Source of the DNA: Chloroflexota bacterium
GTDB taxonomy: Bacteria; Chloroflexota; Anaerolineae; Promineifilales; Promineifilaceae
Direction: 5' to 3'
Length of the DNA: 40,406 nucleotides
Assembly: GCA_018004935.1 (NCBI GenBank)
Contig: JAGNBF010000071.1
Coordinates: forward strand, 1-40,406
Shown here: piece after piece, positions 35,949-40,093 of the stretch
Position numbering within the stretch: the first letter of the stretch is position 1
Layout of the letters: every line of letters starts with the position of its first letter
Program-made: the position numbers and the translations under genes
The notes under the pieces: generated by a model
The model's database searches: none
The model's input: the letters and a program-made list of their open reading frames with translations, nothing else
Told to the model about the DNA's origin: nothing

Positions 35949-36059
35949 GGGTCTTCAGGATTTCGTGGGGTACGGGCAACCCTTGTGGTTGCCCCACACC
36001 GGGCAGGCACAAAGCCAGCCCGTACATCTGGTGTCTACCCCCTGAATTCCCAAAGAACC
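35949..36059. mobile_element. 111-bp MITE (family B), copy 2
   Basis: Inverted orientation relative to 20339-20449. Ends GGGTCTTCAGG and CCCAAAGAACC. It is flanked by the perfect 8-bp direct repeat TTGCTACA (35941-35948 and 36060-36067). Exactly the same length as the copies at 20339 and 37477. Confidence 0.92.
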
Positions 36060-36129: not shown

Positions 36130-36249
36130 GTATCCCACGATTTATGGGTATACTCCAATCGCCCTACACGGTTGCCCAATCATCTGTTGTTTCATACAAT
36201 GACAACCCTTGAAGGCATACTTTTCCCCAAACACCATAACGAGGTAACA

Positions 36250-37422
36250 ATGGCAATCAAAAGTGACCGCTGGATTCGCAAAATGGCCCTGGAACACGGC
36301 ATGATTGAGCCATTTGTCGAAAACCAGGTACGTCAAGGAGTAATCTCCTATGGCGTATCATCCTACGGCTACGACATCCGCGTCGCCGACGAATTCAAAA
36401 TCTTCACCAACGTCTTCTCCGCCATCGTAGACCCCAAAAACTTTGATCCCAAGTCCATGGTAGACTTCAAAGGAGACGTATGTATTGTCCCTCCCAACTC
36501 ATTTGCCCTGGCTCGGACCGTAGAATATTTTCGCATTCCCCGAAGTGTATTAACAATCTGTGTCGGAAAGTCAACCTACGCCCGTTGCTTTCGTGGTGAT
36601 ACCCGTGTGGCTCTCGTAGATGGCACCAGTCCCACCCTCGAAGAAATGGCGCACCGGACAGAAGAGGGCGAAATATTTTGGGGGTATAGCATCAGTGAAA
36701 ATGGGCGTGTAATCGTTACCTTACTAGAGGCCCCACGTTATGTTGGACGCGATAACCTGGTAGAACTACTCCTGGACAATGGTCAGACGATTTTTTGTAC
36801 CCCAGATCATTTGTTTATGCTCAGAGACAGGCAGTGGCAGGCCGCCGGTGAACTTCAACCAGGGACATCCTTAATGCCCCTCTACCGTTCAGTTCAACAT
36901 GGTCATGAAATAGTTTATCAACCCCTTACGGGACATTTACACCCCACCCAGCATCTCGCCAATGAATGGAATTTACGGCATGGCATTCATCATAAACAGG
37001 CCCTTGGGTTTGACCCCGAAGTAGTGTATGCAAAACCCCGCGCCCATATCCCTGAAAACAGCCATACCTTTTCGAGGCAAATGACCGCCAACAATCATAA
37101 AATTATATCCGTGCGTTTACTCGCCGGGGATCATGATGTTTATTGTCTGACCGTTCCTGAAACGGGCAATTTTGCTTTAGAAGCAGGGGTTTTTGTCCAT
37201 AATTGTGGCATTATCGTCAACGTGACCCCATTTGAACCGGAGTGGGAAGGATACGTTACCCTGGAAATCTCCAACACGACCCCTCTGCCTGCCAAAATTT
37301 ACGCTAACGAAGGTATTTCCCAGGTCCTTTTCTTTGAGTCAGATGAAGTGTGCGAAACATCTTACGCCGACCGCAAAGGGAAATATCAAAGCCAAAAGGG
37401 AATTGTTTTGCCTAAGTTGTGA
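36250..37422 (+). CDS. dcd: dCTP deaminase precursor containing a mini-intein
   Basis: A 390-residue precursor from ATG 36250 (GAGG upstream). The host protein, 184 residues after splicing, is dCTP deaminase, making dUTP for thymidylate synthesis: [49 protein letters not shown], then GKSTYAR up to residue 112, and after the intein [29 protein letters not shown] with the catalytic Glu (residue 339 of the precursor), ending [12 protein letters not shown]. The intein (residues 113-318) interrupts the most conserved active-site strand, right after the Arg equivalent to R115 of the E. coli enzyme. The protein is thus inactive until spliced. The upstream in-frame ATG at 36190 is not supported. No GCGGCCGC occurs in this gene. 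Confidence 0.93.
36586..37203 (+). mobile_element. 206-residue mini-intein in Dcd
   Basis: Splicing motifs are complete: block A begins with Cys ([13 protein letters not shown]), block B has TPDH ([10 protein letters not shown] and H three apart), block F is [17 protein letters not shown], and block G is GVFVHN followed by extein Cys. Residues 100-165 between B and F are short and contain no LAGLIDADG motif and no complete HNH site; [20 protein letters not shown] may be a remnant of a lost HNH homing endonuclease. It should therefore splice but not home by itself. Confidence 0.93.
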
Positions 37423-37476: not shown

Positions 37477-37587
37477 GGTTCTTTGGGGTTTCGTGGGGTA
37501 CGGGCAACCCTTGTCGTTGCCCCACACGGGGCAGGCACAAGGCCAGTTCCTACATCTGGTGTCAACCCCCTGAATTCCCCAAGACCC
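37477..37587. mobile_element. 111-bp MITE (family B), copy 3
   Basis: Ends GGTTCTTTGGG and CCCAAGACCC. Flanked by the perfect 8-bp direct repeat AATAACTT (37469-37476 and 37588-37595). The joined flanks reconstruct GAGAACTAAATAACTTGTTCG, which is the start of a family C element; the uninterrupted relative is at 20231-20260. Confidence 0.93.
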
Positions 37588-37723: not shown

Positions 37724-39364
37724 TTAGAAATCACCACCCATACCGCCACCGGGCATTGGTGGGGTCTTTTCCTTTTCGGGAATGTCGGTGATGAGGGCTT
37801 CGGTGGTTAGAATCATGGAAGCGATACTGGCGGCATTTTCCAATGCGCCACGGGTCACTTTAGCCGGATCAGTGATACCAGCTTTGATCATGTTCTCGTA
37901 TTTGTCATTCAAAACGTTGTAACCAATATTCTTATCGCCATGTTTCTCTTGTTCGCGGCCTACGTTTTGGATGATAACATCCCCATTTTGGCCTGCGTTG
38001 GAAGAGATTTTACGCATGGGGGCTAACAAAGCCTGGCGCAGAATGTTCAAACCGGTACGGATATCACCTTCGGGTACCGTTACTTCGTCCAGAGCTGGCA
38101 GGGCGTTGATCAGAGCCACACCACCACCGGGAACAATTCCTTCTTCCACAGCGGCGCGGGTTGCACTCAAAGCGTCTTCAACGCGATGTTTCTTCTCTTT
38201 TAGTTCAACTTCGGTCGCCGCACCCACACGGATGATAGCCACACCACCGGCCAATTTAGCCAGGCGTTCGTTGAGTTTTTCTTTGTCGTAGTCAGAGGTG
38301 CTCCGTTCGATTTCGGCCCGGATTTGTTCCACCCGACCTTTAATCTGATCTTCGCTACCAGACCCATCCACAATTGTGGTGTTGTCTTTGCTAGAGACCA
38401 CTTTGGCGGCACGGCCCAGGTCGCTGATCTGGGTGCTTTCCAGTTTGCGGCCCATTTCTTCGGTGATAAGTTGACCACCGGTGAGAACGGCGATGTCCTG
38501 CAACATGGCCTTGCGCCGATCCCCAAAACCAGGGGCTTTGATGGCCAGGGCGTTGAAGGTTCCGCGCAGTTTATTCAAGACCAATGTGGCCAGGGCTTCG
38601 CCATCTACATCTTCGGCGATGATGACCAGATTGCGACGACCAATTTGGATCATTTTTTCCAGAATCGGCACTAAATCTTGAGCAGAGCTGATTTTCTTGT
38701 CATGGATGAGGATGTAGGGGTCTTCGATGACCGCTTCCATAGATTCGGCGTTGGTGATGAAGTAGGCGCTGATATAGCCACGGTCAAACTGCATCCCTTC
38801 GACGAATTCGGTCTCGAATTGTAGACCTTTGGACTCTTCAACAGTGATGACACCATCTTTCCCTACTTTGTCCATTACTTCAGCGATCAGTTGGCCGATG
38901 GCATCGTCTTGGGCAGAGTTGGAAGCGACAGAGGCGATTTCGTCCATGCTATCAATCGGCACGGCCATTTCGCGGATACGTTTGGAGAGTGCGGCCACAC
39001 CAGCTTCGATGCCTCGTTTGAGGAGCATGGGATTAGCACCGGCGGCCAGGTTTTTCAACCCTTCGTTGACGATGCTTTGCGCCAATACGGTGGCGGTAGT
39101 GGTACCATCACCAGCAATGTCATTGGTTTTGGTGGCGGCTTCTTTGAGTAACTGGGCGCCCATATTTTCAAAGGGGTCTTCCAGTTCGATTTCTTTAGCG
39201 ACGGTTACGCCGTCGTGGGTGACGGTGGGCGCACCAAATTTTTTGTCTAAAGCGACGTTGCGGCCTTTGGGGCCGAGGGTAGTAGAGACGGCATTGGCGA
39301 CGACGTCAATACCTACTTTCAGTTTACGACGGGCGTCTTCGGAAAAAGCGAGTTGCTTCGCCAT
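37724..39364 (-). CDS. groL: Chaperonin GroEL (Hsp60)
   Basis: A 546-residue chaperonin subunit that forms the ATP-driven folding cage with GroES. Sequence is full length and canonical: [72 protein letters not shown] (ATP-binding Asp-Gly-Thr-Thr-Thr near 85-90), [15 protein letters not shown], and the glycine-rich tail [17 protein letters not shown] precedes the ATG at good spacing. It lies 87 bp behind groES in one transcript and ends at a strong terminator. It lacks the GCGGCCGC octamer entirely, unlike most genes here. Confidence 0.98.
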
Positions 39365-39451: not shown

Positions 39452-39748
39452 TTAGCCTTCAACAATGGCTAGAATGTCGGATTCTTTGAGAATGAGGAGT
39501 TTTTCGTTATTGATTTTGATTTCGGTACCGGCATATTTGGCATACAGTACACTATCGCCAACGGCTACGTCCATGGCAATGCGTTTGCCATCATCATCAC
39601 GGCGGCCAGGGCCAGCGGCAATAATGACACCCTGTTGGGGTTTTTCTTTAGCGGTTTCGGGTAATACCAGACCGGAGGGGGTTGTCTGTTCCTGTTCGAC
39701 AGGACGCACGACAACACGATCGCCTAGTGGCTTCATATTTGTGGACAT
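39452..39748 (-). CDS. groS: Co-chaperonin GroES
   Basis: A 98-residue co-chaperonin that caps Gro[37 protein letters not shown] (core and mobile loop), [30 protein letters not shown] are diagnostic. The start at 39748 is preferred over the GTG at 39754 because AAGGAG (39757-39762) sits 8 bases away. First gene of the CIRCE-controlled operon. Confidence 0.96.
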
Positions 39749-39814
39749 TTTCACATCTCCTTACGTATGAAATTGACAAATTTCAGTGGTAGAAAGCGAG
39801 TAGATTTTTGATTA

Positions 39815-39841
39815 TTAGCACTCGCTTCATCGGAGTGCTAA
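39815..39841 (-). promoter_or_regulatory. CIRCE operator 1 (HrcA site), perfect
   Basis: TTAGCACTC - N9 - GAGTGCTAA matches the CIRCE consensus at all 18 arm positions. It lies 10 bp downstream of the -10 box, over the expected transcription start of groES-groEL. HrcA repressor should bind here and release on heat shock. Confidence 0.97.
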
Positions 39842-39851
39842 CGATGGAGGA

Positions 39852-39880
39852 ATTTTAGCAATGGCAAGGGGAGATGTCAA
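39852..39880 (-). promoter_or_regulatory. Sigma70-type promoter of groES-groEL
   Basis: On the minus strand TTGACA (39875-39880), 17-bp spacer, TAAAAT (39852-39857). Perfect -35, near-perfect -10, and optimal spacing. Confidence 0.9.
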
Positions 39881-39886
39881 GGGATT

Positions 39887-39913
39887 TTAGCAATCAATTC
39901 ACTGAAGTGCTAA
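39887..39913 (-). promoter_or_regulatory. CIRCE operator 2, one mismatch per arm
   Basis: TTAGCAATC - N9 - AAGTGCTAA, the same 9-9-9 geometry as operator 1, placed directly upstream of the -35 box. Each arm differs from consensus at one base, so a weaker HrcA site is likely. Confidence 0.75.
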
Positions 39914-39982: not shown

Positions 39983-40093
39983 GAGTCTTTGGGAATTCAG
40001 GGGGTTGACAGCAGATGTACGGGCTGGCCTTGTGCCTGCCCCGTGTGGGGCAACCACAAGGGTTGCCCGTACCTCACGAAACCCCAAAGAATT
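39983..40093. mobile_element. 111-bp MITE (family B), copy 4
   Basis: TCTTTGGG and CCCAAAGA are the same 105 bp apart as in copy 1, and the internal sequence matches copy 1 closely and in the same orientation. The flanks (GTTATTTA and TTTATTTT region) are only loosely similar, so the target duplication has decayed or is absent. Confidence 0.88.

Follow-up and report, generated by a model that had tools for sequence, protein, structure and literature searches.

A probable two-operator HrcA sandwich at the groES-groEL promoter of an uncultured Chloroflexota bacterium

Introduction

CIRCE, the operator of the HrcA/CIRCE regulon, is among the most conserved operators of bacteria and is commonly viewed as a single block. 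At the end of the window, as we call the whole 40,406-nt stretch of Chloroflexota DNA analysed here, a groES-groEL operon lies on the minus strand, and its promoter has a CIRCE on either side: a perfect copy downstream and a slightly imperfect one upstream. Is the second copy a working operator and, if so, what would it add to the first? From the comparison of related loci, we find it reasonably probable that the promoter of this main groES-groEL operon is controlled by HrcA through a phased sandwich of two operators, of which the upstream one is the weaker.

Results

Two CIRCE flank a strong predicted promoter

The elements of the locus, from upstream to downstream, are as follows.

39887..39913, minus strand: predicted upstream CIRCE (operator 2), TTAGCACTT-N9-GATTGCTAA on the coding strand, two mismatches, one per arm
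39881..39886, minus strand: gap AATCCC, 6 nt, from the upstream CIRCE to the -35
39875..39880, minus strand: -35 hexamer TTGACA
39852..39860, minus strand: extended -10, TGC then TAAAAT (TAAAAT at 39857..39852)
39815..39841, minus strand: predicted downstream CIRCE (operator 1), perfect, 0 mismatches
39452..39748, minus strand: groES (Cpn10), by Pfam
37724..39364, minus strand: groEL (Cpn60), by Pfam

Read towards groES, they follow one another as TTAGCACTTCAGTGAATTGATTGCTAA, AATCCC, TTGACA, 17 nt ending in TGC, TAAAAT, 10 nt and TTAGCACTCCGATGAAGCGAGTGCTAA. The promoter, TTGACA-N17-TAAAAT and thus of the sigma-A type, scores 11 out of 12, the top value in the scanned stretch, and the two CIRCE are 72 bp apart, start to start. 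Our CIRCE scan of the window returned both operators exactly where the original prediction had placed them, with the same mismatch counts and spacing; the ideal promoter that it had put just after the upstream copy was recovered as well, on the minus strand.

The likely start of groES is the ATG at 39748, preceded by AAGGAG, rather than the GTG at 39754 of the open reading frame list; from the downstream CIRCE to this ATG there are 66 nt. If transcription begins 7 nt past the -10, +1 would be 39845, which places the downstream CIRCE at about +5 to +31 and its upstream partner at about -42 to -68. The perfect copy had been described as covering the start region, which is slightly loose, since it begins just past the predicted start.

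With up to three mismatches allowed, the window holds only these two CIRCE, where shuffled sequences lead one to expect 0.02. The whole genome (7.98 Mb) contains a single further CIRCE, upstream of hrcA. This gene occurs once in the genome (E 8.9e-46), and an HrcA match above the cut-off is found in 51 of the 52 genomes of the window's family. Two sequence marks of an HrcA/CIRCE regulon are therefore present: the TTAGCACTC-N9-GAGTGCTAA operator stands at a chaperone operon, whose groES and groEL are recognised by Pfam, and hrcA is in the genome.

Elsewhere in the window, a dCTP deaminase-like gene with an in-frame intein lies at 36172-37422 on the plus strand, PF22769 matching in two stretches around PF14890. 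Positions 35949-36059 and 37477-37587 form a 111-nt direct repeat of 88% identity; by eye, a similar stretch appears to recur near 39990-40090 and in locus L003, and it is probably an interspersed repeat of the genome.

The upstream CIRCE is conserved in the family

We scanned the regions upstream of groES for CIRCE in a family sample of 52 genomes, 46 of which have groES. Three of the 46 loci were set aside, two at contig ends (G006, G027) and one with a different groES paralogue only (G009). The upstream CIRCE is present at 42 of the 43 assessable loci, 39 times by rule and three times by eye (G031, G074 and G075, with a 10-nt spacer in one site each; the automatic CIRCE pair of G075 was spurious and was discarded). 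Only G012 (L154) is without it, and its downstream CIRCE is perfect. G012 is also the sole genome of the 52 without an HrcA match, for which an assembly gap may account; we therefore give this coincidence no weight.

When each of 19 genera is represented by a single genome, the two arms of the upstream CIRCE carry 1.68 and 1.55 bits per column, against 0.20 in their own spacer and 0.14 in the 30 bp beyond the site. The upstream CIRCE is thus conserved above its flanking DNA, as expected of a functional second operator. The original prediction had tied the site to its presence upstream of groES in close relatives, and there it is indeed kept. Chance as the origin of the second CIRCE is ruled out by the shuffle expectation together with the conservation of the arms.

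At the hrcA promoters of the family the picture is different: exactly one CIRCE was found in 28 of 30, none in two and a pair nowhere; both loci without CIRCE are shorter stretches, maybe cut by contig ends. Since hrcA promoters have a single CIRCE and the upstream site of groES is conserved, the second operator is a feature of groESL that selection maintains. Altogether, the upstream CIRCE is probably a working part of the groESL switch.

Could the upstream site serve another promoter, divergent or a second one in tandem, or could HrcA act there as an activator? In the window, a TTGACA does stand just upstream of the upstream CIRCE. The relatives do not share this hexamer, as the low information of the flanks attests, the promoter scan of the stretch gave no divergent promoter-like site, and we know of no case of HrcA as an activator; we hold such a role to be very improbable. 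The same TTGACA could have marked a duplication of the whole promoter-CIRCE unit, which we excluded because the hexamer is not common to the relatives.

A second groES-like gene (L162, G000:C27:6711-9865, ORF 889-1167) has no CIRCE. By eye, it directly follows thioredoxin-/glutaredoxin-like reading frames, and no groEL adjoins it in the stretch read. Other family genomes also have second groES copies; the four scanned (L158-L161) are without CIRCE.

The upstream copy usually departs from the consensus in one arm

Of the two CIRCE of family loci, the upstream one is more degenerate, and its changes are not scattered. Position 21 is altered (G to C or T) in 27 of 39 copies, and seven have a change at its mirror, position 7 (C to A or G); both are never altered together, and five copies have neither change. 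Exactly one of the two positions is thus altered in 34 of 39 upstream copies versus 2 of 39 downstream ones. Mutual exclusion among the upstream copies gives a Fisher p of 5e-5, uncorrected for relatedness. Such a one-arm defect looks like selection for a half-strength operator.

Degeneracy is also what one would see in a decaying relic that has lost HrcA binding, and a precedent exists in the second CIRCE of Myxococcus xanthus groESL1, reported as unbound in vitro (PMC9040617). We consider decay quite improbable here: positions G4, C5, G23 and C24, the GC cores of the site, are invariant in 39 of 39 copies, the arms stand at about 1.6 bits beside 0.14 in the flanks, the double defect at positions 7 and 21 is never seen, and the site is found at nearly every assessable family locus. 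A maintained but weaker upstream operator, as in the two-operator sandwich, is the reading we retain, and the consistently more defective upstream site in the window's family fits graded repression.

Two observations bear on how far the defect can be taken. In families f63 and f100, the promoter-proximal arm is intact in most upstream copies, so the one-arm defect is not general. In addition, several Dehalococcoidia loci have a lone CIRCE whose two arms are both of the GAC form; the "defect" may therefore lower affinity little.

Within the family, the distance from the upstream CIRCE to the -35 is nearly constant

The distance from the upstream CIRCE to the -35 is 7 nt in 31 of 39 family loci, 6 in five, 5 in two and 8 in one. 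This gap typically begins with AAW and ends with C, its first three bases holding 1.35, 1.40 and 0.93 bits and its last C 1.06 bits; with 6 nt, the window is one short of the family norm. The two promoter hexamers are 16 or 17 nt apart, the -10 lies 10 to 15 from the downstream CIRCE, and the operators are 72-77 bp apart. With one genome per genus, the variance is 0.56 for the gap, 2.32 for the downstream distance and 2.16 for the operator spacing. The tightest distance in the family is hence the one to the -35, not the one between operators, which is evidence against looping as such.

The conserved AAW adjoining the upstream CIRCE resembles a proximal UP element. The upstream site may then act only via RNA polymerase: HrcA would cover, or compete for, a UP-like A-rich element that is fused to the end of the CIRCE and locked to the -35. 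Both the tightness of the gap and the conservation of its bases, AAW first and C last, speak for this possible but doubtful explanation. Other lineages speak against it: in f63, f100 and f104 the gap varies from 6 to 8 while the operators of 25 of the 27 pairs remain 73 bp apart, and lineages with gaps of 15-17 bp leave the proximal element free.

Operator pairs recur in other lineages, probably in helical register

Outside the family, 80 groES loci of the class have a CIRCE and a clear promoter. An upstream partner, defined by at least 13 of 18 matches, accompanies 15 of them, and 12 are credible: three with a gap of 6-7 (f21 twice, f46) and nine with a gap of 15-17 (f2, f16, f21, and three each in f29 and f44). 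The wide layout returns in another f2 genome, G036, at 83 bp; for the presumed groES locus of G040 (f4), the spacing was counted using the better promoter orientation. Three "upstream sites" of f38 at gaps of 33-34 (G174, G233, G241) were set aside by eye as probable terminators, because their sequence is common with terminator-like hairpins followed by T runs. Among 34 named loci, five have a partner at a gap of 5-8. At groES, many families of the class make do with one CIRCE, and a second is therefore dispensable.

A strict pair pattern (spacing about 65-95) was found in 32 of 400 genomes of the phylum, a lower bound, because the pattern caught only two of three sampled genomes of the window's family. 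Apart from these two, three of the 32 are in f68 and 27 in f63, f100 and f104, which belong to other classes; groES was confirmed downstream at 2 of these 27 pairs (G387, G253). In 25 of the 27 the operators are 73 bp apart, with single pairs at 71 and 74; the gap is 8 in 17, 7 in nine and 6 in one, and the downstream distance 9 in 17, 10 in eight, 8 in one and 11 in one. A longer gap goes with a shorter downstream distance (r -0.79): the promoter shifts by 1 bp between the sites. The window's family thus points to a lock on the -35, and f63, f100 and f104 to one between operators.

Across lineages, pairs are spaced by about 73-75 or 81-86 bp, near seven and eight helical turns; the pooled values are 71-77 and 82-84, with 81-86 in f44. 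For 12 family-level values, the Rayleigh test yields R 0.79 and p about 8e-5 at 10.5 bp, for lineages that are phylogenetically non-independent and with R about equally high for periods of 9.5-11 bp. For these two reasons, and in view of the range of 72-77 bp inside the window's family and of the small number of independent lineages, we call a constant helical register of the operators likely and no more. The f31 and f5 loci, the f68 hits that have no clear promoter, and the named loci of Actinomycetota type (46-49 bp) have different layouts and were kept outside the statistics on spacing, except that f5 was included in one version of the Rayleigh test.

Two of these layouts are described here in their own right. 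In f5 (L248, L256, L285, L287, L290), the upstream CIRCE begins with TTGACACTC, the -35 and probably the -10 lying inside the operator; its partner CIRCE is found 41-42 bp further along in five genomes and 31 bp in one more. In f31 (L182, L220), groES has two overlapping CIRCE-like repeats, 24 bp apart, with a common TAA end.

The original prediction proposed that the spacing could let two HrcA dimers loop the DNA or sandwich the polymerase. The spacing is indeed constrained and near whole turns, as either would need; looping as such fares worse, the family gap to the -35 being tighter than the operator spacing (0.56 vs 2.16). In its full form, the dimer on one site would join that on the other, enclosing the promoter in a DNA loop of about seven turns, of the gal or lac type. 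The clustering near seven and eight turns, the Rayleigh value and the spacing fixed at 73 while the promoter shifts inside it all agree with a loop. Against it stand the family spacings of 72-77, a range of nearly half a turn over which the gap to the -35 stays near 7, the flat dependence of R on the period, the shared ancestry of the values and the stiffness of a 73-bp DNA loop; to our knowledge, moreover, HrcA tetramers have never been described. We judge a closed loop unlikely.

Discussion

We now propose a model of the two-operator sandwich. One HrcA dimer would occupy each CIRCE. Bound at the strong downstream site, HrcA would stop initiation or promoter escape; the upstream site would lie on roughly the same helical face, where the alpha subunits of RNA polymerase would touch the DNA, and HrcA there would form a second block. 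Jointly, both sites would keep a very strong promoter tightly repressed. When unfolded protein titrates GroEL, active HrcA would drop and the weaker upstream site would empty first, making induction graded. The helical register suggests that two dimers, or the upstream HrcA and the polymerase, share one face; direct contact, be it from dimer to dimer or from upstream HrcA to polymerase, is the least certain step.

More tentatively, the same design may extend across Chloroflexota as an old two-operator groESL switch, in which HrcA dimers would sit on one helical face at both sides of the polymerase, at spacings that differ by about one helical turn (73-75 or 81-86 bp), and which would be tuned, in the window's family, by a conserved weakening of one upstream arm. 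We hold this wider version to be possible but less likely than not; if it were true, a chaperone repressor would act by cooperative contact across the promoter, beyond simple blocking.

The comparison also shows that a second CIRCE can look "degenerate" and yet be maintained. Phased pairs in several families of the phylum, with single-CIRCE controls in the same genomes, offer a natural series for studying the cooperativity of HrcA, and for asking whether the weak site sets the gradualness of chaperonin induction.

How does this layout compare with known systems? The HrcA/CIRCE groESL system of the Bacillus subtilis type has the same CIRCE consensus, the same groESL target, hrcA in the genome and a CIRCE just past the promoter; the locus of the window adds a conserved second CIRCE upstream of the -35, at a constrained spacing. 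In systems of the GalR/LacI type, paired operators flank the promoter in helical register and looping has been shown. Flanking operators in register are common to both; looping was demonstrated there, and the layout here is known from sequence.

Chaperone promoters with multiple CIRCE have precedents, which we cite from the accessible portions of the sources: two CIRCE overlap the promoter of Lactococcus lactis dnaK (PMC1676014), two are found at Lactobacillus plantarum hrcA (PMC3842655), and M. xanthus groESL1 has CIRCE1 and CIRCE2, the latter not bound by HrcA in vitro (PMC9040617). These cases concern other operons or single species, and in those portions no phylum-wide, phased flanking layout is described for them. 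For Chloroflexota, we found no report of the paired layout in the open-access literature, the scope of our search, which most subscription papers fall outside. As far as these sources go, the double CIRCE is thus already known, and the flanking layout of Chloroflexota is the part for which we found no report.

The closest measured analogue is the groESL promoter of Campylobacter jejuni, where HspR is reported to bind upstream and HrcA over the start, cooperatively (PMC7464140). There too, repressors flank the core promoter; the difference is that C. jejuni uses two different repressors, whereas here one type of operator is used twice.
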